A stretch of 64,000 bases of DNA, taken from the NCBI RefSeq assembly GCF_023015695.1, contig NZ_JALKAS010000001.1, positions 2,170,001-2,234,000 on the forward strand, read 5' to 3'. Every line of letters starts with the position of its first letter. Position 1 is the stretch's first letter. Shown piece after piece: positions 48,712 through 61,519 of the stretch. The notes beneath the pieces are model-generated. The model was not told the origin of the DNA. It saw nothing but the letters and a program-made list of their open reading frames with translations, and made no database searches. The stretch comes from Jannaschia sp. S6380. GTDB taxonomy: Bacteria > Pseudomonadota > Alphaproteobacteria > Rhodobacterales > Rhodobacteraceae. Position numbers and translations under genes: made by a program.

Positions 48712-49454
48712 CCTTCTCCCTGATCGGACGCGACGACGACGGTGCCATCGGCCTGATCGTCGCCAGCAAGTTCTTCGCCTGCGGCGCCGTCGTCCCTTGC
48801 CTCTCGGGGCGGGTCGCGGTGGCCTCCCAGGCGTTCTGCAATCCGGTCTGGGGCACCGAAGGCCGCGCGCGGATGGAGGCCGGCGAGGGGGCCGAGGCCG
48901 TGCTGGCCGACCTCGTGGCCCGCGACGAGGGCCGGGCGATCCGGCAGGCCCATCTGATGGATGCCGAAGGCCGCTTCGCCGCCCATACCGGTGCCGACTG
49001 CGTCGACTGGGCCGGCCACCTCATCCGCGAGGATCATTCCGTGGCGGGCAACATGCTGACCGGTCCGAACGTGATCGAAGCGACCTCCGAGGCGTATGCG
49101 GCCGGCGGGGGCAAGCCTTTCCCCGAACGGCTGCTGTTCGCGATGCGCGCGGGCGAAGCGGCGGGCGGCGACAGGCGGGGACGCCAGGCGGCGGGCCTCA
49201 CGATCCATCGGGGGGAGGCGCATGCCTGGCTGGACCTGCGCGCGGACGACGACGCCGACCCACTGTCCGAGCTGGGACGCCTATGGGACGTGGCGCAGGA
49301 GCGTTACGTACCGTTCTCCGAGGGCATGCCGACGGAGGATCGCTTTTCCGGCCACCCGATCCGCGAGGGCATCGACGCGGCCATCGCCGCCGCGGAGGCG
49401 CGGCGAAAGGCCGAGGGCCGGCCCAGCCGGTCGCGAGCGGTCGAGTACGAGTGA
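48708..49454 (+). CDS. DUF1028 Ntn-hydrolase-like protein
   Basis: A 248-residue protein with the DUF1028 pattern: TFSLIGRDDDGAIGLIVASKFFACGAVVPCL at the N-terminus, then GAVAVAS-like and GNML blocks and a C-terminal DDADPLSELGRL. The family looks like an Ntn-type amidohydrolase and often neighbours gamma-glutamyltransferases and peptide importers. It overlaps both neighbours by 4 bases, which points to a shared pathway for peptide or amide cleavage. Confidence 0.88.
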   Translation: MTFSLIGRDDDGAIGLIVASKFFACGAVVPCLSGRVAVASQAFCNPVWGTEGRARMEAGEGAEAVLADLVARDEGRAIRQAHLMDAEGRFAAHTGADCVDWAGHLIREDHSVAGNMLTGPNVIEATSEAYAAGGGKPFPERLLFAMRAGEAAGGDRRGRQAAGLTIHRGEAHAWLDLRADDDADPLSELGRLWDVAQERYVPFSEGMPTEDRFSGHPIREGIDAAIAAAEARRKAEGRPSRSRAVEYE

Positions 49455-50152
49455 AGGACGGCGGCGACAGCACGGAGGCCGGCCTACGCGCCCGCCTGCT
49501 GGAGCTGATCGCCTCCGGCGGAGGCCTGGGCGAAGGCGGGCGTCTGCCCACCGAACGGGAGTTGGCGGAGCGGTTTGGCGTGGGCCGCCGCTCGGTGCGC
49601 CACGCGCTCGACACGCTGGAAGACGAGGGCCTCGTCTGGCGGCAGCAGGGCCGCGGGACCTTCGCCGGCCAGCCCGACGATCCGCTGAGCGATCTGGCGG
49701 CCGCCGTCATGACCGAGACGAACGCGCTCGAGGTGATGGAGGCGCGGTTGTGCATCGAGCCGGAGCTGGCCGCCCTCTGCGCGCAGCGCATGCAGCCGGG
49801 CGAGACGCTTCGCCTGCGCGCGCTGGCACAGCGGCGGCTGGAGGCCGACGACGCGGCGGCGATCGAGCTCTGGGACGGGTCGCTGCATCGCCTCATCGCG
49901 CGATGCGCCCGCAACCGGCCGCTGCTGACGGCGTTCTCGTTGCTGGATCGCATTCGCTCCGACCCCGATTGGATCGCCTTGCGCGCGCGCGGGCGGGATG
50001 AGGCCTCGATGCGGGCCTCCCATGCCGAACACATGACCATCATCGCCGCCATCGAGGCGCGCGATGCGGACGGCGCCCGCGCGGCGATGCGCGCGCATCT
50101 CGACACCCGGGCCGGTGCGCTGCGCAGCGGCGGGGCGCCGACCGGGGCCTGA
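49451..50152 (+). CDS. GntR-family transcriptional regulator (FCD type)
   Basis: A 233-residue regulator. The winged helix has LPTERELAERFGVGRRSVRHALDTLEDEGLVWRQQGRGTF, and the C-terminal FCD ligand-binding domain has LWDGSLHRLIARCARN. The GTG start overlaps the DUF1028 stop, so it is the last gene of the peptide operon and probably its regulator. The paired inverted repeats at 41283-41328 are possible targets. Confidence 0.88.
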   Translation: MKDGGDSTEAGLRARLLELIASGGGLGEGGRLPTERELAERFGVGRRSVRHALDTLEDEGLVWRQQGRGTFAGQPDDPLSDLAAAVMTETNALEVMEARLCIEPELAALCAQRMQPGETLRLRALAQRRLEADDAAAIELWDGSLHRLIARCARNRPLLTAFSLLDRIRSDPDWIALRARGRDEASMRASHAEHMTIIAAIEARDADGARAAMRAHLDTRAGALRSGGAPTGA

Positions 50153-50192: not shown

Positions 50193-50243
50193 TTGACAAA
50201 CACATCTCGGACTCACGACGATCAAGGCTAGTGAAACGTTTCA
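50193..50243 (+). promoter_or_regulatory. promoter and LacI-type operator of the sugar ABC operon
   Basis: TTGACA (50193-50198), an 18-base spacer and GACGAT (50217-50222) could form a promoter. The perfect LacI-family palindrome TGAAACGTTTCA (50232-50243) sits at the expected transcription start, where a bound repressor would block initiation. It differs by one base from the site in front of the LacI-PfkB gene. Confidence 0.75.
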
Positions 50244-50274
50244 AACCCGGACGGGGGGCCAGGTTGCAGCCGTG

Positions 50275-51045
50275 ATGCCGAAACTGTCCATGCGGGGTAT
50301 CGTCAAGCGGTTCGGCGGTGTCGTCGCACTGGACGGCGTCGACTTCGACGTCCGGCCCGGTGAAGTCATGGCGCTCGTGGGGGACAACGGCGCAGGCAAG
50401 TCGACCCTCATCAAGACCTTGGCCGGCGCACACATGCCCGACGAGGGCGTGATCGAGATCGACGGCGCCCCCGTGCGGTTCACCTCGCCGCAGGACGCCT
50501 GGACGCGGGGCGTCGCCACCATCTTCCAGGAGCTTGCGCTGGCGGGAAAGATGACCATAGCCGACAATATCTTCCTAGGGCGGGAAATCACGCGCCGCAT
50601 CGCGGGGGTGGAATTCCTCGACCGTCGCGCCATGCGCGACCGGGCGCATGCGCTGCTCAACGAACTCGACGTCGTGGTCCCCGACATCCACACTTGGGTC
50701 GAACATCTCTCCGGCGGGCAGCGGCAAGGCGTGGCCATCGCCCGCGCCCTCAATATCGACGCCGAGGTCATCATCATGGACGAACCGACCGCCGCGCTGG
50801 CCGTGGCGGAGGTCCGCAAGGTGCTGAACTTCGTCCGTACGCTGCGCGAGCAGGGCAAGTCCGTGATCCTGATCTCACACAACGTAGGCGACGTCCTAGA
50901 GGTCTCGGACCGCATTACCGTGCTCCGGCGCGGGCGGAGGACGGGGCTTCTGGAGACCGCGCGCACCACCCCAGAAGAGGTGGTGGCCCATATCACCGGC
51001 GCGGTGGTGAGCGAAGAGCGGGTCGAACCGGCCCCCTCCCCCTGA
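50275..51045 (+). CDS. sugar ABC transporter ATP-binding protein, single domain
   Basis: A 256-residue ABC ATPase of the carbohydrate-uptake CUT2 class: Walker A GDNGAGKST, Q-loop FQELALAGKMTIADNIFLGRE, signature LSGGQRQGVAIARAL, Walker B VIIMDEPTAAL. Most CUT2 ATPases (RbsA type) have two fused domains; this has only one, like FrcA. ATG 50275 follows a GTG at 50272 that could also start. It is the first gene after the LacI-type operator. Confidence 0.92.
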   Translation: MPKLSMRGIVKRFGGVVALDGVDFDVRPGEVMALVGDNGAGKSTLIKTLAGAHMPDEGVIEIDGAPVRFTSPQDAWTRGVATIFQELALAGKMTIADNIFLGREITRRIAGVEFLDRRAMRDRAHALLNELDVVVPDIHTWVEHLSGGQRQGVAIARALNIDAEVIIMDEPTAALAVAEVRKVLNFVRTLREQGKSVILISHNVGDVLEVSDRITVLRRGRRTGLLETARTTPEEVVAHITGAVVSEERVEPAPSP

Positions 51046-51069: not shown

Positions 51070-52053
51070 ATGTCACTGAGAGCAACCATCGCGGGCGGCG
51101 TCGCCCTGACCCTGGCGGCCCTGCCGGTCGCCGCACAGGACGATACGACCCAGATCGCCTTCATCCCGCAGATCGCGGGCATTCCCTACTACATCGCCAT
51201 GGAGGAGGGCGCCCAGCGCGCCGCCGAGGCTCTGGGCGTGGAATACGTGCAGGAAGGTCCGACCAGCACCAACGCCGCCGATCAGCTCCGGATCTTCGAA
51301 AGCTTCGTCAACCAGGGTTTCGACGTGATCGCCATCTCGCCGCTGGACGAGGAGACGCTGAAGCCCGCCATCTCCCGCGCCATCGAGGCGGGGATCGTCG
51401 TGCTGACTTCCGACGCCGACGCGCCCGGCAGCGACCGGCAGTTCTTCGTGGCCCAGGCGCTGGACCAGGATCTGGGCGAGACGCTGCTGAACGAGGCCGC
51501 GGACCGCATCGGCGAGAGCGGCAAGATCGCCATCGTCTCCGATTCACCCACGATCTCCTCGATGCAGAACTGGATCGCCGCGATCGAGGCGCGCGCCGCC
51601 GAGGCCTATCCCGACATCGAGATCGTATCGGTCGATCATACCGACGGTACGGCGCAGCGCGCCTATCAGTTCGCCACCGACGCCATGACACGCAACCCCG
51701 ATCTCAAGGCGGTTCTCGGCATGGCGTCCACCACCTGCCCCGGCATCGCGCAGGCGGTCGAGGCGGCGGGCATGACGGGCGAGGTCCTGACCGCGGGCTT
51801 CTGTTCGCCCAACACCGCCCGCGACTACATCAAGTCGGGCGCGATGCCGTTCTCGGTGCTGTGGAACCCGGCCGATCTGGGCTACCTTACCGTCTGGGTC
51901 GGCAACCAGCTGGCCTCGGGCGGCACCATCGACGGCGACCTGACGGTCGAGGGGCTGGACGATCCCGTCCGCTTCCTGCCCGAGAACGACATCATCCTGC
52001 TGGGGCCGCCGGCGGTCTTCACCGCCGAGAACGTCGACGAATTTGACTTCTGA
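51070..52053 (+). CDS. sugar ABC transporter substrate-binding protein
   Basis: A 327-residue periplasmic protein. The signal peptide is cleaved near PVAAQ, and the type-1 (Peripla_BP_4) fold has IPQIAGIPYYIAMEEGAQRAAEALG, the region of RhaS/LsrB-type binding proteins, and VIAISPLDEETLKPAI. It binds a sugar or sugar-like molecule; the similarity to rhamnose and AI-2 binders is only approximate. GGAGAGAG precedes the ATG. Confidence 0.9.
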   Translation: MSLRATIAGGVALTLAALPVAAQDDTTQIAFIPQIAGIPYYIAMEEGAQRAAEALGVEYVQEGPTSTNAADQLRIFESFVNQGFDVIAISPLDEETLKPAISRAIEAGIVVLTSDADAPGSDRQFFVAQALDQDLGETLLNEAADRIGESGKIAIVSDSPTISSMQNWIAAIEARAAEAYPDIEIVSVDHTDGTAQRAYQFATDAMTRNPDLKAVLGMASTTCPGIAQAVEAAGMTGEVLTAGFCSPNTARDYIKSGAMPFSVLWNPADLGYLTVWVGNQLASGGTIDGDLTVEGLDDPVRFLPENDIILLGPPAVFTAENVDEFDF

Positions 52054-53014
52054 GGTCGCCCCCACGTCGAAGCGCCCCTCCCGCCCGGTTCGCATCGGGC
52101 GAGAGGGGCTCTTGCTGGTGGCGCTGGTCGTGCTGATCGCGGTCTTCGCCAGCCAGTCCGAATTCTTCCTGACCGAACGCAACCTGACGACGATCCTGCG
52201 AAACTCCGTCGATCTGGCGGTGATCTGCGCGGGCATGACCATCGTCATCATCCTGGGCGGAATCGACGTCAGCGTGGGGGGCATCCTCGCGGTGTCGGCG
52301 GTCCTGATCGGACGCGCCTACCAGATGGGGATGCCGGACTGGATCGTGGTGCCCGTGGGCCTCGCGGCGGGCGCCGCGCTGGGGGCGATGAACGGCGCGG
52401 TGATCGCGCGCACCCGGGTGCCGCCCATCGTGGCGACGCTGGGCACGATGTATATCTTCATCGCCGTCCTGTTCCTCGTGATCGGGGGCGTCTGGATCAG
52501 CGGCCTGCCCAACACCCTGTCGTTCCTGGTGCTGGGCGACGTGTTCGGCGTCCCGTCGGGGGTATTCATCATCGCGGGCGTCTACCTTGTGGCATGGGCG
52601 TTGCTTCGGCGGATGCCCTGGGGACAGCGGGTCGTGGCGATCGGCTGCGACGAGGGCGCGGCCCGTCTGGTCGGGATCCGCGTGGACCGCACCAAGATCG
52701 AGGCGTACGCGCTGCTCGGCCTTTTCGCGGGCCTGGCCGCCATCCTTTATGTCGCGCGTCTGCGCAACGTCGAGGTCAATATCGGCACCAACATCGCACT
52801 CGAAGCCATAGCCGCCACCATCCTGGGCGGCGCAAACATCCGCGGCGGCACAGGGTCGCTGCTGGGCGCGCTGATGGGCGTTGTCTTCATCAAGATGACC
52901 CAGAACGGCCTCGTCCAGATCGGCGTCTCGTCCCTGTGGGAAACCGTCGTCATCGGCGGCCTTCTGATCGTCGTACTGGTGCTGGACGCCATCGAGGAAA
53001 GGCGCGCCGGATGA
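52043..53014 (+). CDS. sugar ABC transporter permease
   Basis: A 323-residue CUT2 permease with about ten hydrophobic segments and typical blocks AGMTIVIILGGIDVSVG, RTRVPPIVATLGTM, and AIAATILGGANIRGGTGS. The TTG start overlaps the binding-protein gene by 11 bases. It pairs with the next permease, whose ATG overlaps its stop. Confidence 0.9.
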   Translation: MTSEVAPTSKRPSRPVRIGREGLLLVALVVLIAVFASQSEFFLTERNLTTILRNSVDLAVICAGMTIVIILGGIDVSVGGILAVSAVLIGRAYQMGMPDWIVVPVGLAAGAALGAMNGAVIARTRVPPIVATLGTMYIFIAVLFLVIGGVWISGLPNTLSFLVLGDVFGVPSGVFIIAGVYLVAWALLRRMPWGQRVVAIGCDEGAARLVGIRVDRTKIEAYALLGLFAGLAAILYVARLRNVEVNIGTNIALEAIAATILGGANIRGGTGSLLGALMGVVFIKMTQNGLVQIGVSSLWETVVIGGLLIVVLVLDAIEERRAG

Positions 53015-53973
53015 GCGACCCTCTGAACCAGCGCCTTCTGTTCCTCGCCGGCCTTCTCGTCGCCGTCGCGGCCCTGGGCTCCGTGTTGTCGCCGTCCTTC
53101 CTTCAGGCTTCGACGGTGGGATACCTGCTGCAATACGTCCCCGTCCTGGGCGTTCTGGGCCTTGCACAGACCCTTGTCATGCTGTCAGGCGGGCCGGGGA
53201 TCGACCTGTCCATCGGCGCGATCATGTCGCTCGTCGGGCTGGCCATCGCGGCGATGTTCGGCGCGGGCGTTCCGTTGTTGCTGGCCTGCCTGCTGGGCCT
53301 CGGGCTCGGCACGATCCTGGGCGCGGTGAACGCCGTGCTGGTTTGCGTGCTGGGCGTGCCGTCTCTCATGGGCACGTTGGCCACCTTCTTCGCCTATTCC
53401 GGGCTGGCGCTGGCCCTGACCGGCGGCGCGCCCATCGGCGGCATTCCCGACTGGTTCGGTACGCTGGCGCAGGGTCGGCTGATCGGCGTGCCGATCCACG
53501 TCTGGGCGGTGTTCATCCCGCTGGCGATCGCGCTGCATGTCCTGTTGTCGCACACCCGCACCGGGAGTCACATCTACGCTGCCGGAAACGACGAACGCGC
53601 GGCCTTCCTGTCGGGCGTCGCGGTCTGGCGGCTCCGATTCGGCCTGTATTGCCTTAGCGGGGCCATCGCGGGGCTTGCCGCGATCATGACCCTGTCCTGG
53701 TTCCAGGCCGCCCGTCCCGACGCGGGCGAGGGGATGGAGCTGCTTTCCGTGACCATCGCCGTGCTGGGCGGAGCGCATATCTTCGGCGGAATCGGGCGCA
53801 TTTCCGGCACGGTACTGGCGATCCTGATCATCACGACGCTTCAGGTGGCACTGCAACTGGCGAACATATCCCAGGCGTGGCAGCTCGCCGCCATCGGTAT
53901 CCTGCTCATCGGCAGCGTCGTCGCCGACAATGCCGTGGGCGACCGACTGCGCGCGCGCGCCCGACGCGCCTAG
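53011..53973 (+). CDS. sugar ABC transporter permease
   Basis: A 320-residue CUT2 permease: QTLVMLSGGPGIDLSIGAIMSL, GVPSLMGTLATFFAYSGLAL, and SVTIAVLGGAHIFGGIGRISGT. Two distinct permeases imply a heterodimeric channel. Its TAG stop overlaps the stop of the convergent SIS gene in CTAG, so the two operons meet with no intergenic DNA. Confidence 0.9.
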   Translation: MSDPLNQRLLFLAGLLVAVAALGSVLSPSFLQASTVGYLLQYVPVLGVLGLAQTLVMLSGGPGIDLSIGAIMSLVGLAIAAMFGAGVPLLLACLLGLGLGTILGAVNAVLVCVLGVPSLMGTLATFFAYSGLALALTGGAPIGGIPDWFGTLAQGRLIGVPIHVWAVFIPLAIALHVLLSHTRTGSHIYAAGNDERAAFLSGVAVWRLRFGLYCLSGAIAGLAAIMTLSWFQAARPDAGEGMELLSVTIAVLGGAHIFGGIGRISGTVLAILIITTLQVALQLANISQAWQLAAIGILLIGSVVADNAVGDRLRARARRA

Positions 53974-54986
53974 CCCTGCCAGCCGAACCAGTCGCGCTGC
54001 ACCTCGGCCGCCGCCGTCCCCCGCCCGGGGTCGGTCACGTCCAGATCCAGCCGCTCGGCCACGGCGAGGCACAGCGCCTGACAGGCCAGCCCGGCGTCGA
54101 GCGCGGCCAGGAGCGGGTGGCCGTCGTCGAAGCCGGCCGCCCCCACCGTCACGCCCAGCCGCTCCAACCCGTGGCGCAGCGCCAGCGTCCGCGCATCGCC
54201 AGGGCCGCCATCGCCGCACAGCATGACGTGATCCCCCGGGCGCAGCATGAATTGGGCGCCATGGGCCACGTTCTCGCCCTCGAACGCCCAGGCGGGCAGG
54301 CCGCCGGCCTCGTGCATCTTGGCCGCCCCGTATTCCGCCGAGCCGAGCGCCGCGCCGCAGCCCAGGAAGACGAAGCGCGGCGCATCCGGCAGCCCCGCCG
54401 CCACTGCCCGCGCCGTGTCCAGGTGGGCGGACGTGCGCGCCGCGATTATCGTGCCGATGGCATCCGCATCCAAATCGCCCGCGAGCGCCGCGAGCGCGAG
54501 CACCGTCACGTGGTAGTCCAGCCCATGGGGGATTGCCCGGCTGATCGGTTCGTAGTCCAGTGGCAGCACCGCGTCCGCCACCTGCGCCAGTGCGCTGTCG
54601 GACTTCATCGTCACCGCCAGCGTCCGCGCGCCCGTCCGGGCGGCGGCCTGCACCGCGTCGACCGTGCGCCGGGTCGAACCGGAGATGGAGATCCCCACGA
54701 CGAGGTCGCGTGCCGTAATCGGCGCATCCCATAGCATTTCCGCTGCGCTGGCAGGCCGGAGGTCGAGGCCCTGCCCCCGCCACAACCGCGCCACCGCGCG
54801 CGCCGCGAACAAGCTGTCGCCGCAGCCGCCAGACCAGACGGTCGTGCCGGGCGCGGGGCGCAGATCGCGCACGGCTCCGGTCAGGCGGGCGGCGATGGCG
54901 GGCAGAAGCTCCGGCTGCGCGTCCAGTTCGCGCTGCATCAAGGCATGGCTTTCCGTCGGGGTCATGGGCGGCTCCGGGTCAGGCAT
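53970..54986 (-). CDS. SIS-domain sugar-phosphate isomerase-like protein
   Basis: A 338-residue protein with two SIS domains, like the isomerase half of GlmS or AgaS. SGGCGDSLFAARA and GISISGSTRRTVDA bind sugar phosphate, and a FEGENVAHGAQFMLRPGD block matches the GlmS ExE..HG region. It probably isomerises or deaminates an amino- or keto-sugar phosphate. ATG 54986 overlaps the previous gene by ATGCCTGA; an ATG at 54965 with GGAG upstream is also possible. It is the last gene of the LacI-PfkB operon. Confidence 0.82.
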   Translation of the reverse strand: MPDPEPPMTPTESHALMQRELDAQPELLPAIAARLTGAVRDLRPAPGTTVWSGGCGDSLFAARAVARLWRGQGLDLRPASAAEMLWDAPITARDLVVGISISGSTRRTVDAVQAAARTGARTLAVTMKSDSALAQVADAVLPLDYEPISRAIPHGLDYHVTVLALAALAGDLDADAIGTIIAARTSAHLDTARAVAAGLPDAPRFVFLGCGAALGSAEYGAAKMHEAGGLPAWAFEGENVAHGAQFMLRPGDHVMLCGDGGPGDARTLALRHGLERLGVTVGAAGFDDGHPLLAALDAGLACQALCLAVAERLDLDVTDPGRGTAAAEVQRDWFGWQG

Positions 54987-55908
54987 CGGGGCACAGGGCG
55001 GCCAGACCGTCGGGCGCCACCGGCCCGCGCTCCGTCAGGATCGAGGTGATCAGGGCGGGCGGCACGACTTCCAGTTCCGGCGCCTCGGTCGAGGCAACCT
55101 CGCCCGCGCGCAGCAGACCGTCGTAGCGGCGCGCCGCGGGCGACGGCAGGTCGGTGGCGTCCCGGTCGCCCACCTTGAACAGGTCCGCCGCCCCATGCAC
55201 CGCCACGCCATGCGCCCGCGCCGTCCGCGCGGTCATGATCGAGCCGATCGTGTTCACGATGCCGCCGTCCCGCGACACGCTTTCCGCGCCCAGCAGCACC
55301 GCATCCGACCGGGCCATCGCATGGTCGATGGCCGCATCCGGCAGGAACAGGATCGGCACGTCCAGATCGGCCAGCGCGGTCATGTAGCGGCGCCCCCCGT
55401 CGATGGCGCGGCTTTCGGGAATGACGATCCGGTCCAGCCGCGCGGCAGAGGCGCGCACAAGATCGGCCACGGTACTGGAATAGTCGAAGATCAACGGTGC
55501 GCGCATCCCGGACAGCGCCCGTGCCCCGGCCGCAATCAGATCGCGGCGGCGGGTGGCGGCGGCCACGTCCCATTCGGCGGCCCGTGTGCGCAGCAGGTTG
55601 GCGGCGGCGGACGGGTTCATCCCATCCGCGCCCGCGATCTGCCACGACAGGGCGTTCGCCACGATAGGTGCCCCCTGCCCCCGCGTCTCCGCGATGAACC
55701 GCGCCAGCGAAAGTGCCTCGTCCCGCGCGGTCGCCCGCTCCATCGCGGCCAGCCGCGCCACCAGAGGTAGCGCCAGCGCGACATGGTTCGACGCGCCCAG
55801 CGTCCCCTCGTCGACGATATCCAGTAGCCCCTGCATCGTCTCCGCGTCGGGTGCGGGATGGCCCCGCGCCTGCGCCTGCGCGACGTAGTCGAACCGTCTG
55901 TCAGGCAT
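54979..55908 (-). CDS. eIF2B-like protein lacking the isomerase catalytic cysteine
   Basis: A 309-residue member of the eIF2B/M1Pi/R15Pi superfamily, with PESRAIDGG and GAESVSRDGGIVNTIGS. In catalytic sugar-phosphate isomerases of this family, a Cys (HCNS) and an Asp (GAD) do the chemistry. Here they appear as DYSS (residues 142-145) and GAE (E209), as in regulatory eIF2B alpha subunits. It may therefore bind a sugar phosphate without isomerising it, or use other residues. It overlaps both neighbours by 8 bases (ATGCCTGA). Confidence 0.78.
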   Translation of the reverse strand: MPDRRFDYVAQAQARGHPAPDAETMQGLLDIVDEGTLGASNHVALALPLVARLAAMERATARDEALSLARFIAETRGQGAPIVANALSWQIAGADGMNPSAAANLLRTRAAEWDVAAATRRRDLIAAGARALSGMRAPLIFDYSSTVADLVRASAARLDRIVIPESRAIDGGRRYMTALADLDVPILFLPDAAIDHAMARSDAVLLGAESVSRDGGIVNTIGSIMTARTARAHGVAVHGAADLFKVGDRDATDLPSPAARRYDGLLRAGEVASTEAPELEVVPPALITSILTERGPVAPDGLAALCPDA

Positions 55909-56830
55909 CCCGCACCCCGTCCACATCGAGAAACGCCGCCATCTCGGCGGCGGTGGGCGCGCCTGCCTGCGCGCCGTAAGCCCGCGTGGAAAGGGCCGCC
56001 GCCGCGTTGGCCCGGCACAGGGCCGTGGCGTCGTCCGCGCCGTCCAGCATCGCCGACAGGAACGCACCCGCGAAGGCGTCGCCCGCGCCGGACGTATCTG
56101 TCACGGGGACGCGGTGGCCCGGGATCTGCGTGCGGGTGCCGCTCCGCTCCAGCATGGCGCCCTGGCGCCCGCGCGTCGTAATCACGGCCCGCCCCTCGGA
56201 GGTCAGCGGGCCCAGCACCGGCTCCACCGCCGCGCGGCTCCGGTCGCTGACGAACAACAGGTCGACGCTCGCCAGCAGGTCCGCCAGCGCGCCGCCCCCC
56301 TGCGGCAGGTCGGCAGGCAGGTCTGCGGCCTCGAGGTCCAGCGACAGCGTGGCCCCCGCAGCCCGCGCCATCGCCGCGACCGCCAGACCCGGATCGGCCC
56401 GCGCCACCGTCAGGTGGACATGGGCCACGCCCGCGAAAGCCGCTGCCATGATCTCGTCGGCGCGCGGCAGGAAGGCCGGGCTCATCACCTTGACCAGCGA
56501 CTTCTCCCCCTCGTCGTCCACGAGGATCACGCAGAAGAACGTCGCCTCGCCGTGCCGCGTTGCCACATGGCTCAGATCCAGACCCTCGGACGTCAGCGCC
56601 GCCAGCGCTTCGCGTCCCAACGCGTCGTCGCCCACCGCCCCCAGAAGCCGCGTCCGCGTGCCAAGCCGCCGCGCGGCCACCGCAACGTTCGCGGCCATAC
56701 CGCCGGGCGTCTGGGCGATCCGCCGCCCGTCCACCTTACCGTCGCGCGACGGCGGGGCCGGCACGCGTACGATCAGGTCCATGTCGATGTCGCCCACGCA
56801 CAGGAGGCGGGCCGTCGCGTCCGCATCCAT
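55901..56830 (-). CDS. PfkB-family carbohydrate kinase
   Basis: A 309-residue ribokinase-fold kinase. It has GDIDMDLIVRVP, the GG motif PGGMAANVAVAARRLG, and DTSGAGDAFAGAFLSAML with catalytic D251 at the second Asp. It should phosphorylate a sugar or nucleoside with ATP. It starts one base after the LacI-PfkB stop and overlaps the eIF2B-like gene. The substrate is unknown. Confidence 0.88.
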   Translation of the reverse strand: MDADATARLLCVGDIDMDLIVRVPAPPSRDGKVDGRRIAQTPGGMAANVAVAARRLGTRTRLLGAVGDDALGREALAALTSEGLDLSHVATRHGEATFFCVILVDDEGEKSLVKVMSPAFLPRADEIMAAAFAGVAHVHLTVARADPGLAVAAMARAAGATLSLDLEAADLPADLPQGGGALADLLASVDLLFVSDRSRAAVEPVLGPLTSEGRAVITTRGRQGAMLERSGTRTQIPGHRVPVTDTSGAGDAFAGAFLSAMLDGADDATALCRANAAAALSTRAYGAQAGAPTAAEMAAFLDVDGVRDA

Positions 56831-56831
56831 C

Positions 56832-58019
56832 CTAGACCCCCGCCGCGGCAGCCGCCGAAGCCCGCGTGCCCGTCAACGCCCCCTGCGCGCCCATCGTGGC
56901 GAGCGAGGCGCTGGCGCCCCGAACCGCCCGCGACAATGCGTCCTCCCCCATGTCCCCTGCCAGCCAGCCGGCGAGAAAAAGCCCCGTGAACGCGTCACCT
57001 GCCCCCGTCGCATCCACGACCTCCACCGGCGGGGCCGGACAATTCACCGGCGCCGCGCCGGGCCGAAGCAGCGTGGCCCCCTCCGCGCCCCGCGTCAGCA
57101 CCAGCATCCCGCAGCAGGGATGGCCACCAGGCGGGCCGAAGGCGCGGCCGGGGTCGGCGGCGAGGTCGGGGGCGCGGGCGGTCATGGCCTCGAAGCTCTC
57201 ACGGTTGAGCATCAGCACGTCGCAGAACCCCATCAAGGCGCGCAGCCCGTCAAGCGTCAGCCAGTCCGACGACAGCCCCGCCGAATGAACCGAGATACGG
57301 TGCCCCGCCGCGCGGAGCGATGGCTCCGCAGATTGCGCGATGTCGGCGTGGAACCCGTCGAAATGCACCACGACGGGCAACTCGCCGGGGGGGCGGCGGG
57401 CCAGATGGTCGACCAGCGTGTCGGCGCGGACCTGAAAAGGTTCGTTGATGATGGTGCGGCGGCCGCCCGGCTCCACCATGACGATACACCGCGAAAGGCG
57501 CGTCCCCGGCGCCTGCAGCGCGCCGCTCGGGTCGACGCCCCGTTCGGACAGCTGCTCCAGCGCCCAAAGGCTGTCGTCGTCGCGCCCGAGCTGGGTGACC
57601 ATCTCGACGCCGATGCGTGCGGGGGGGTCTCCGGCTGCGGCGAAGGCGGCGACGTTCGCCGCGGGCCCGCCCAGCATCTTGGTAATGCCGTCGGAGGTGA
57701 CGCGCTCGCCGGACTGGGGCGCGTTGCCCAGCATCACCATGTAGTCGATGGAAATGTATCCCACCGAGATCAGCCGTGGCAGGTCGGCCCGGGCCGGACG
57801 CCCGGGGACGGCGCGCCGCGAGATCAGGGAGCGTGCCATCGTGTTGGGCCGATATCCCAGGTCATCCGCCGCACAAGTCACCGCGCGCCGCGTGCCGTCA
57901 GACACGGCCTTGCTGCCATTGAGAACATGGGAAACGGTGCCCACGGACACGCCGGCCCGGCGGGCCACGTCCCGTATCGTGACGCGACGGGCGAACGGTT
58001 TGGGATCCGGTTCTGTCAT
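56832..58019 (-). CDS. LacI-type HTH fused to a PfkB carbohydrate kinase
   Basis: A 395-residue protein with two domains in one open frame. Residues 13-70 are a LacI-family DNA-binding domain (VTIRDVARRAGVSVGTVSHV plus hinge helix LGYRPNTMARSLISRR). In place of the usual periplasmic-binding-like sensor, residues about 80-395 are a complete PfkB kinase with MLGGPAANVAAFAAAGD and DATGAGDAFTGLFLAGW (catalytic D342). The start at 58019 puts the HTH at the usual distance from the N-terminus. It is the first gene of a four-gene operon and has a matching LacI-type operator 46 bases upstream. It may act as repressor and enzyme at once. Confidence 0.88.
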   Translation of the reverse strand: MTEPDPKPFARRVTIRDVARRAGVSVGTVSHVLNGSKAVSDGTRRAVTCAADDLGYRPNTMARSLISRRAVPGRPARADLPRLISVGYISIDYMVMLGNAPQSGERVTSDGITKMLGGPAANVAAFAAAGDPPARIGVEMVTQLGRDDDSLWALEQLSERGVDPSGALQAPGTRLSRCIVMVEPGGRRTIINEPFQVRADTLVDHLARRPPGELPVVVHFDGFHADIAQSAEPSLRAAGHRISVHSAGLSSDWLTLDGLRALMGFCDVLMLNRESFEAMTARAPDLAADPGRAFGPPGGHPCCGMLVLTRGAEGATLLRPGAAPVNCPAPPVEVVDATGAGDAFTGLFLAGWLAGDMGEDALSRAVRGASASLATMGAQGALTGTRASAAAAAGV

Positions 58020-58064: not shown

Positions 58065-58099
58065 GGTGAAACGGTTCACCAATCACGGGCCCATGTCAA
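58065..58099 (-). promoter_or_regulatory. promoter and operator of the LacI-PfkB operon
   Basis: On the minus strand TTGACA (58099-58094) is followed 13 bases later by the palindrome GGTGAACCGTTTCACC (58080-58065), covering the -10 zone. Its core TGAACCGTTTCA shares 11 of 12 bases with the operator in front of the sugar ABC operon, which points to autoregulation by the fusion protein. Confidence 0.75.
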
Positions 58100-58747: not shown

Positions 58748-59020
58748 CTACCGGGACGCCTTCTGTAATAGCCCGATCAGCTCGTCGAACTTGGCGCGTT
58801 GTTCTTCGGGGTCTCCGCTCGCAATCGCGGACTCGACACAATGCTCGGCGTGGTTCTCCAGAACGAGCCTTTCGACGCCGAGTACGGCGGATCGTATCGC
58901 GGCCGTCTGCGCCAGGATGTCCATGCAGTAACGGTCGCTTTCGACCATCTTGGCGACACCGCGCACCTGTCCTTCGAGCCGTGACAGGCGATCCAGCGCC
59001 CTTTGCTTGTTGGCCTTCAT
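58748..59020 (-). CDS. csoR: CsoR-family copper-sensing repressor
   Basis: A 90-residue all-helical repressor. C32, H57 and C61 have the exact spacing (25 and 4) of the Cu(I) ligands of CsoR, in YCMDIL and ENHAEHCVE, which favours copper over nickel (RcnR) or formaldehyde (FrmR). AGGAG precedes the ATG at 59020. A perfect operator lies 47 bases upstream. It probably represses the divergent genes and itself when copper is low. Confidence 0.85.
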   Translation of the reverse strand: MKANKQRALDRLSRLEGQVRGVAKMVESDRYCMDILAQTAAIRSAVLGVERLVLENHAEHCVESAIASGDPEEQRAKFDELIGLLQKASR

Positions 59021-59066
59021 GCGGCGGCACTCCTTTTTCGCGAAACCTTCGGGTGACATCTTGGCT

Positions 59067-59087
59067 ATATACCCTATGCGGGTATAT
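59067..59087. promoter_or_regulatory. CsoR operator
   Basis: ATATACCC (59067-59074), a 5-base centre TATGC, and GGGTATAT (59080-59087): a perfect inverted repeat matching the known CsoR half-site (TACCC...GGGTA). It sits between csoR and the divergent copper-type genes. Confidence 0.85.
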
Positions 59088-59180
59088 TGAAGTGACGGCA
59101 ATGGCACAGCAGAACGACGCTACAATGGTCTTCAAAGCGCAGGTCATCACAGTGGCAGCGGCCAAGGCCGGTTCTTTGCG

Positions 59181-59399: not shown

Positions 59400-60188
59400 A
59401 TGCCCAAGGACACCCGAGACGTCGCCGATGTGACAACGGATCCCGCCACCGCCGCGACCGGCAAGACGGCCGTCCTCTACCGCATGGCCCTCCCGAACCA
59501 TCTGTGCCCATCGGGCCAAAAGGCGCGCTGGCTCTTGAACCGCGAGGGCTTCGAGGTCGACGACCGCCTGTTCCGAGACCGCTCGGAGGTCGATGCATTC
59601 AAGAAGGAACACGACGTCTCCACGACGCCGCAGGTCTGGATCGAGGGCGAGCGGGTCGGTGGCTACGATGCCCTGCGCGCGCGTCTTACCGACCACGACC
59701 CGAACGCTAAGACCTACAGACCGGTGATCTACCTCTTCGCCGTGGCCGCCGCGACCGCGCTCACGCTGTCCATCGGTTTTCTCGGCGCCGTCACATGGCA
59801 GACGCTCGGGTGGTTCATCTCAGTCGCGATGATCCTGCTGGGGATGCAGAAGCTCCGCGATATCGAAGGCTTTACCACGATGTTCCTCAACTACGACCTG
59901 CTGGCGCGGAAATGGGTGCCCTATGCCTATATTTATCCCTGGGTCGAGACCGGGGCGGGCATTCTGATGACGGGCATGCTGCTGACCTGGCTTGCCGCCC
60001 CCGCGGCGCTCTTCATCGCCACGGTCGGCGCGATCAGCGTGTTCAAGGCGGTCTATGTCGACAGGCGAGAGCTGAAATGCGCCTGTGTGGGCGGCAACTC
60101 GAACGTGCCGCTCGGCTTCGTGAGCCTGACCGAGAACCTGATGATGATGGGGATGGCCATCGTCATGCTGATACTGATTGTCGTTTAA
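59400..60188 (+). CDS. glutaredoxin fused to a MauE/DoxX-type membrane domain
   Basis: A 262-residue protein. Residues about 22-100 form a glutaredoxin with one active-site cysteine (C36 in HLCPSGQKA, a monothiol type) and the cis-proline loop STTPQVWI. Residues about 108-260 hold four or five membrane helices of the MauE/DoxX type, with a CxC in LKCACVGG. Such fusions are often near CsoR and copper-handling genes and may reduce membrane thiols. It is 64 bases after the DUF305 remnant. Confidence 0.82.
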   Translation: MPKDTRDVADVTTDPATAATGKTAVLYRMALPNHLCPSGQKARWLLNREGFEVDDRLFRDRSEVDAFKKEHDVSTTPQVWIEGERVGGYDALRARLTDHDPNAKTYRPVIYLFAVAAATALTLSIGFLGAVTWQTLGWFISVAMILLGMQKLRDIEGFTTMFLNYDLLARKWVPYAYIYPWVETGAGILMTGMLLTWLAAPAALFIATVGAISVFKAVYVDRRELKCACVGGNSNVPLGFVSLTENLMMMGMAIVMLILIVV

Positions 60189-60682: not shown

Positions 60683-61519
60683 ATGTCCCTCCTGCAGAAA
60701 ATTTCCGGCCAGGCCCCGACCCTGACGCCCAGCGAGCGGCGACTGGTGGAGAACGTGATCGAGAGCCCCACGGCCGCGGCCCTTGGCACCGCGGGCGAAC
60801 TGGCGCGCGCCGTGGGCGTACACGAGGCGACCGCGTCGCGACTGGCGAAGAAGCTGGGCTACGACAGCTATGCCGCCTTCCGCGACGCGCTGCGCGACGA
60901 GTTCATCGCCACGCGCGAGACCGCGACGCGGTTCGAGAAGACTATTGCGGAAGCCGGGTCCGACACGGTTCTCGGCAAGCTCGCGCGCGACGAGATGCAG
61001 GCCCTCGGCCGGATCGAGGAATTCATCACCCCCGACCGGATCACCGAAATCGCGGCCCTCCTGATGCGCGCCAACCGCATCTTCATCTACGGCTACGGCA
61101 ATGCCGAGGTTCTCGCCCTGATGATGGTCAAACGGTTCCGACGCTTCGGCAAGGACGTCCAGCAACTCGACACCGACCCGAGGGGGTTGGCCGAACAGAT
61201 GCTCGGCCTCGCGGCGGGCGACGTCGTGCTCAGCTTCGCCTTCCGCCGACCGCCGCGCGGCTATGCCGCCCTGATAGAGACGGCGCGCGAAATCGGTGCC
61301 GAAACGATCATCGTATCGGGCAAATCGGGCGCGCTTCTTTCGCCGCCCCCCGATCACATCCTGACCGCGCCCCGCTCCGGCGACCAGGATGCGTTCCAGA
61401 CCCTGACCGTGCCGATGACGGTGTGCAACGCGCTCGTCATCGCCGCCGGCCTCACCGCGAAGGACGAGTCGCTCAAGAAACTCGACCGCCTGGGGCAATT
61501 GATCGAGCGCTTCGACTAG
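60683..61519 (+). CDS. MurR/RpiR-family transcriptional regulator
   Basis: A 278-residue regulator. The N-terminal HTH_6 domain has LTPSERRLVENVIESP and ELARAVGVHEATASRLAKKLGYDSYAAFRDAL. The C-terminal SIS domain has FIYGYGNAEVLALMMVKRFRRFG and LSFAFRRPPRGYAALIETARE, where a sugar phosphate would bind. It begins a plus-strand group with an ABC transporter and probably regulates it. Confidence 0.9.
   Translation: MSLLQKISGQAPTLTPSERRLVENVIESPTAAALGTAGELARAVGVHEATASRLAKKLGYDSYAAFRDALRDEFIATRETATRFEKTIAEAGSDTVLGKLARDEMQALGRIEEFITPDRITEIAALLMRANRIFIYGYGNAEVLALMMVKRFRRFGKDVQQLDTDPRGLAEQMLGLAAGDVVLSFAFRRPPRGYAALIETAREIGAETIIVSGKSGALLSPPPDHILTAPRSGDQDAFQTLTVPMTVCNALVIAAGLTAKDESLKKLDRLGQLIERFD

Follow-up and report, generated by a model that had tools for sequence, protein, structure and literature searches.

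The comparisons presented here suggest that a gene of Jannaschia sp. S6380, in which a LacI-family helix-turn-helix (HTH) is fused to a PfkB sugar kinase, encodes a local LacI-type repressor with a ribokinase-fold effector-binding half; based on sequence comparisons, we put the probability of this interpretation at roughly 0.7. The gene is located in a 64,000-nucleotide stretch of genomic DNA (the whole stretch analysed, here called the window), the relevant features of which are listed in Table 1. A preliminary description had claimed a LacI HTH joined to a complete PfkB kinase in one continuous frame, with an intact GG motif and the catalytic Asp D342, and these claims were borne out. The 395-aa ORF runs unbroken from the ATG at 58019 to the stop codon at 56832. 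In Pfam analyses, the N-terminal PF00356 match scored 62.3 bits (cut-off 27) and the PF00294 match scored 106.8 bits (cut-off 25.8), the latter being near full-length (profile positions 5-297 of 302). G117-G118 were found, as was D342 within DATGAGDAF, and a structure model of the monomer predicted a ribokinase fold for the kinase domain. This model also predicted a helix at residues 60-66, at the start of the linker, with pLDDT below 50 for residues 61-72. A hinge helix of this kind has a role in LacI proteins, and an ARSL-type hinge sequence is present in most rows of the fusion alignment. The kinase occupies the usual place of the periplasmic-binding-like sensor domain, and no Peripla_BP match was found in the fusion protein by Pfam at E 0.001. 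At the same E threshold, Pfam likewise gave no match to PF00480, the family number of the ROK domain (PMC4856308).

Table 1. Features of the LacI-PfkB locus, in window coordinates.
Feature	Position	Strand	Remarks
LacI-HTH::PfkB fusion gene	56832..58019	-	395 aa
LacI-family HTH, residues 14-59	57843..57980	-	Pfam PF00356; HTH placed identically by genome-wide search
Hinge-helix-like stretch, ~residues 60-66, in NTMARSLI	57822..57842	-	Model and alignment
PfkB/ribokinase-fold domain, residues 84-380	56880..57770	-	Pfam PF00294
GG motif, G117-G118	57666..57671	-	Invariant in 25/25 fusions
TGAGD motif, residues 338-342, catalytic-type Asp D342	56994..57008	-	Invariant in 25/25 fusions
Candidate operator O1, GGTGAAACGGTTCACC on + strand	58065..58080	.	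Core match 58067-58078
Candidate operator O2, AGTGAAACGTTTCAAA	50230..50245	.	Core match 50232-50243
Second PfkB kinase	55901..56830	-	ATG 1 nt past fusion stop; Pfam/NCBIfam
IF-2B-family sugar-phosphate isomerase-like protein	54979..55908	-	PF01008, 78.5 bits; start inferred
SIS-domain protein	53970..54986	-	PF01380
ABC ATPase, sugar type	50272..51045	+	PF00005; NCBIfam sugar-ABC ATPases below cut-off
Substrate-binding protein	51070..52053	+	Peripla_BP_4
ABC permease	52043..53014	+	PF02653
Second ABC permease	53011..53973	+	Clustering with first permease and its homologues

LacI-PfkB fusions were found at a minimum of 30 distinct loci, mostly in Rhodobacterales and Rhizobiales and in different genera. 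A scan of named genomes matched at least 595 stretches, at least 311 of which encoded a relative, and the best 80 loci were kept. Among these 80, 21 loci (L014-L034) had E values of 5e-54 or lower, and each contained a LacI HTH in frame with the kinase; the match that followed them, among the matches listed, was L035 at 1e-18. L035 was rejected as a fusion, its tblastn alignment running across a stop codon and its kinase being a separate gene, and L037 was rejected because its kinase end precedes a LacI-type HTH, which is the wrong order. Alignment A3 contained 25 proteins, namely the window protein (W), L010, L011, L013, and L014-L034. Identity to the window protein is 35-58% for the remaining 24 and 36-58% for L014-L034. 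The 30 loci comprise these 25, L100 and L102 (from one genome), and the plasmid loci L111-L113; L101 duplicates L029 and was not counted. Given these in-frame orthologues, a frameshift or misassembly was rejected: with at least 30 distinct in-frame loci in different genera, and with a tree compatible with one origin (below), an erroneous join of two genes, one of the refuting outcomes named in the preliminary description, or a chance join has next to no probability.

Four genome screens, each including the genome of the window, recovered the fusion in 3 of 295, 2 of 398, 1 of 385, and 3 of 390 genomes; because the top few first-look candidates alone were scored per genome, these counts are lower bounds. 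Among the genomes listed in the 390-genome screen are 10 congeners that gave no match. The distribution of the fusion is rare and patchy. Some orthologues are plasmid-borne, and one of the plasmids is predicted to be conjugative; on that plasmid (L112, NZ_CP017242.1), the rhizobial fusion operon adjoins type I restriction-modification and Kiwa-like genes. When 93 kinase domains were placed on a tree, those of the 27 fusions included formed one group requiring one change (support 77/88; 82% of 200 bootstrap trees), separate from the two lineages of neighbouring second kinases. The tree is moderately supported, with long branches for L102 and S_L075; its topology fits a single origin of the fusion.

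The candidate operators are of the palindromic type TGAANCGNTTCA, which has at its centre the CG characteristic of LacI-family sites. The 3.53-Mb genome contains this palindrome at five places, compared with none for the reversed-pattern control, and two of the five lie in this cluster, one before the fusion operon (O1) and one before the convergent ABC operon (O2). Read on the fusion strand, O1 is GGTGAACCGTTTCACC; its centre is 53 bp upstream of the fusion ATG, and its core begins 15 bp past a TTGACA hexamer. O2 ends 26 bp upstream of the first start codon of the ABC operon. When one mismatch was allowed in the window alone, two matches were obtained, against a mean of 0.21 in dinucleotide shuffles; two matches were reached by 2 of 100 shuffles, and both real sites have zero mismatches. 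A relaxed search of the same genome with two mismatches gave 20 rows versus 5 for the reversed control, and was set aside as too loose. As for the remaining genomic sites, L094 and L098 are well within long predicted coding frames. The L095 site, TGAAACGTTTCA (G000:C1:2099136-2099147), is found where a short predicted frame begins and about 155 bp upstream of a divergent LysR-like frame; given this position, it may belong to a promoter away from the cluster, being part either of a regulon member elsewhere or of the site set of another LacI protein. Other LacI proteins of this genome might use similar sites.

Sites of this type recur at the orthologous loci. At least one was present in the stretch examined at 25 of the 30 fusion loci (30 sites in 498,682 bp), compared with 1 of 59 control loci, which are more distant relatives. 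The controls contain 2 sites in 850,008 bp, and both belong to L037, where a separate LacI-type HTH frame is found beside a kinase. The reversed pattern occurred once in the 21 fusion loci L014-L034 and not at all in the controls. In 20 of 30 loci, the site centre was no more than 60 bp upstream of the point where the fusion starts. The rhizobial sites, with centres about 21 bp upstream, are nearer than is usual, and O1 of the window fits the usual placement. At L014, L015, and L016, a second site lies 30-65 bp ahead of the ABC-ATPase match, giving the same two-ended arrangement as in the window. The L029 site is upstream of the first gene in the fusion-containing row, L018 has one between divergent substrate-binding protein and BtpA genes, and the L017 site adjoins a partly matching BtpA frame. 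No operator-type site was found in the stretches examined at L010, L025, L031, L100, and L111 (5/30), and a search for an operator in the L010/L100/L111 branch found none. L010 and L100 are also without the ARSL-type hinge, and DNA binding may have been altered or lost in the L010/L100 branch. The candidate sites agree with LacI-site features given in a published survey (PMC4052901), namely an even palindrome, a central CG, and a location near target promoters. These combined sequence data indicate that palindromes of the O1/O2 type are probable operators, through which the fusion protein would control the adjoining sugar-uptake and sugar-processing genes.

Selection on the HTH was assessed in close pairs of fusions. 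In the 23 computable of 25 pairs, HTH dN/dS took values of 0 to 0.22, lower than kinase dN/dS in 18; the linker between the two domains drifts. The HTH is under strong purifying selection and, because of this low dN/dS together with the upstream operator-type sites, looks like that of a working regulator. The same two observations, an HTH dN/dS as low as that of the kinase and operator-type sites upstream, argue against a chiefly metabolic kinase whose HTH is vestigial or left untranslated, as reported for RikA of Salmonella. That explanation, which we consider improbable, draws on the naming of two of the three plasmid orthologues as 'PfkB family carbohydrate kinase' (the third carries no annotation) and on the RikA protein as made under the reported conditions, which appears to start at M90 (PMC13432705). 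In the fusion gene, a Shine-Dalgarno-like string is absent at the assigned ATG and at the in-frame start codons at residues 60-96 alike.

The genes around the fusion point to the import and processing of a sugar. At the window, L014, L015, and L016, the fusion is followed by a second kinase, an IF-2B-type isomerase, and a SIS gene, and this row faces the ABC genes (the second kinase and ABC ATPase of L015 were missed by the gene call and recovered by separate sequence inspection). At L018, L019, and L024, the fusion, ABC genes, isomerase, and SIS genes form a single row. Most other rhizobial loci have the order fusion, GATase1_like, ABC, M20 deacylase, and the remaining fusions are beside TenA, BtpA, or phosphotriesterase families, as assigned through Pfam-scanned representatives. 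GATase1_like proteins recur beside LacI-PfkB fusions (rhizobial loci among L013-L034, L029, and L109 10647-11411), as judged by Pfam for L022 and by clustering or eye for the others. Because of these neighbourhoods, the ligand is probably an imported sugar or sugar conjugate that differs between branches. The best NCBIfam match of the second kinase in the window was ribose-1-phosphate kinase, far below cut-off. Weak NCBIfam matches of this kinase and the isomerase, likewise far below cut-off, had pointed to a RuBisCO-linked pentose-bisphosphate pathway; this candidate was rejected, as the RuBisCO large subunit is absent from the genome of the window.

Genome G125 was considered as a fusion-free control. 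Its second kinase, isomerase, SIS protein, and ABC genes are 59%, 62%, 65%, and 76-83% identical to those of the window; the second kinase is not preceded by a fusion, and the fetched stretches are free of the operator. G125 was rejected as a fusion-free test because the same strand encodes, about 1.7 kb past the ABC ATPase, a fusion of the L010 branch. At L105 (285-9739) and L114, the second kinase, isomerase, SIS, and ABC genes correspond to those of the window, a window-type fusion and the operator are absent, and an L010-branch fusion with its own kinase adjoins the ABC row. Other putative regulators are encoded nearby in the window: a gene judged GntR-like from its sequence is located just upstream of the ABC operon (49445-50152, + strand), and a small protein resembling CsoR/RcnR metal-type regulators is recognizable by eye at 58748-59107 (- strand). 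Also by eye, a divergent glutaredoxin-like/membrane protein is encoded at 59400-60188 (+ strand). An RpiR-family regulator (HTH_6 plus SIS by Pfam; 60683-61519, + strand) lies upstream of a gene that by eye resembles iron-type substrate-binding proteins.

Whether the kinase half would also be an enzyme bears on the remaining proposal of the preliminary description, in which binding and turnover by an active sugar kinase set DNA binding, such that repression tracks catalytic flux. We regard this true trigger enzyme as possible but doubtful. D92, G117, G118, N122, T309, D336, T338, G339, A340, G341, and D342 are invariant in 25/25 fusions, and given the conserved D92, GG, N122, and GAGD, the fusion may be an active enzyme. 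Moreover, the gene call placed no second kinase in the fusion operon of most rhizobial loci (at L022, L030, and L034 one lies further off, on the other strand). Against an active kinase stands the NXXE motif, which reads N-R-E-S in the window protein. Its last residue is Glu, Gln, or Asp in 0/25 fusions versus 53/54 standalone relatives (29 Glu, 18 Gln, 6 Asp); these comparators, selected through GAGD or LGG patterns, include many members of one actinobacterial clade, with five of the 59 control loci left out (L035, L037, L052, L074, and L086), and their GAGD conservation is partly the result of that selection. Changing the NXXE Glu of adenosine kinase to Lys abolishes activity (PMC3118340), and NXXE is reported to participate in Mg binding (PMC5931981). 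A second PfkB gene directly after the fusion in the window also speaks against a catalytic role for the fusion. We did not accept NXXE loss as proof of inactivity, because the Glu is also missing from 6 of 13 second kinases examined (W, L014, L015, L016, L019, and L024; 12 aligned and L015 read by eye), and if its loss were fatal, those six operons would be left without any kinase. On sequence grounds, NXXE loss thus lowers the odds of kinase activity without settling them.

L102 (L109 3828-5165, - strand), a 445-codon open frame with LacI HTH and PfkB matches of 47.3 and 76.5 bits, also bears on this question. L102 departs from the 25 fusions at 18 of their 48 invariant positions, including four in the HTH (R12P, S25A, G27S, and T28S) and D92E, T338G, A340M, and G341D in the active site, where DEGGMDD replaces DATGAGD and the catalytic Asp is retained. 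The gene is behind two ABC ATPase genes, peptide-type by eye, and an operator-like palindrome (L109 7164) lies in the gap between its row and a divergent row of permease-like and GATase1-like genes (by eye). A protein with a degraded GAGD that retains a LacI HTH match and a nearby operator-like site argues against the trigger enzyme. L102 looks like a pure receptor, and may alternatively be a decaying gene.

Taken together, these sequence data are explained no less well by a kinase-fold ligand sensor that turns over weakly or not at all than by a trigger enzyme coupled to flux. What stands of the earlier proposal is a regulator with the kinase in the sensor position and an HTH resembling that of a working local regulator with conserved operator-type sites; the coupling to catalytic flux is the doubtful part. 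For the local LacI-type repressor that we favour, we infer that a dimer of the fusion would occupy O1 and O2 and repress both operons. The imported sugar, or its conjugate or phosphate, with or without ATP, would then bind in the kinase cleft, lid closure would change the dimer and the hinge helices, and the protein would release the operators, inducing the uptake and processing genes. The second kinase would perform most or all of the phosphorylation in the pathway, with turnover by the sensor domain being weak or accessory at most. LacI-family practice is repression from sites at promoters; because of this practice and because the sites are at presumed promoters, repression is taken as likelier than activation. 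More tentatively, such proteins might form a class of repressors in which a working ribokinase site reads the substrate, ATP plus sugar lifts repression, and slow phosphorylation resets the switch, a class that would include the degraded, receptor-only L102. If so, the switch would weigh unphosphorylated substrate against kinase capacity, and the evolution of an enzyme into a sensor could be traced inside one family through L102, in which the fold would be kept as a receptor alone.

The candidate operators make the regulator idea directly testable. Moreover, because two of three plasmid records annotate such proteins as plain kinases or leave them so, regulators of this type can be masked by annotation. 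NadR, BirA, and PutA are trigger enzymes in which an enzyme fold is coupled to a DNA-binding domain, as in the fusion, whose catalysis is putative; their catalytic domains are unrelated to that of the fusion. Compared with E. coli ribokinase RbsK, the fusion is 18-19% identical and without the NXXE Glu, and it has P119-A120 where three aligned ribokinases have K-G.

The LacI family is a textbook case: a 2014 survey takes a PBP-like C-terminal domain as its defining feature and describes the domain structure as rigid (PMC4052901). The fusion resembles the family in its HTH, hinge-like helix, even palindromic candidate operator with a central CG, and what appears to be local control over sugar transport and catabolism, its own operon among the targets. 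It falls outside the canonical LacI proteins, since it lacks the periplasmic-binding-like domain and has a ribokinase-fold kinase as effector domain instead. A conserved branch with a kinase in place of the receptor suggests that the LacI DNA-binding and hinge module can be driven by an unrelated receptor fold.

Among the hits listed from the open-licence literature, no title or abstract beginning had a LacI-PfkB protein as its subject. ROK repressors have lost catalysis. ROK repressors such as Mlc consist of an N-terminal HTH on a body of a sugar-kinase family (PMC4856308); the fusion shares this plan, and differs in its kinase superfamily and its HTH and in retaining GAGD and the Asp. The nearest published architecture found in the open-licence literature is RikA (STM3547) of Salmonella. 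RikA is annotated with a DeoR HTH and a PfkB domain, has ribose kinase activity, and under the conditions tested appears to have been made without the HTH (PMC13432705); a homologue of its neighbour STM3548 is a predicted glutamine amidotransferase (PMC13432705). Like RikA, the fusion places an HTH before a PfkB domain, the HTH being of the LacI rather than the DeoR type. The amidotransferase-type neighbour of rikA also parallels the GATase1_like neighbour of many rhizobial fusions, and a shared pathway may lie behind these HTH-PfkB proteins. The domain swap described here is therefore a variation on a known theme, represented by the ROK repressors and the DeoR-PfkB protein RikA.
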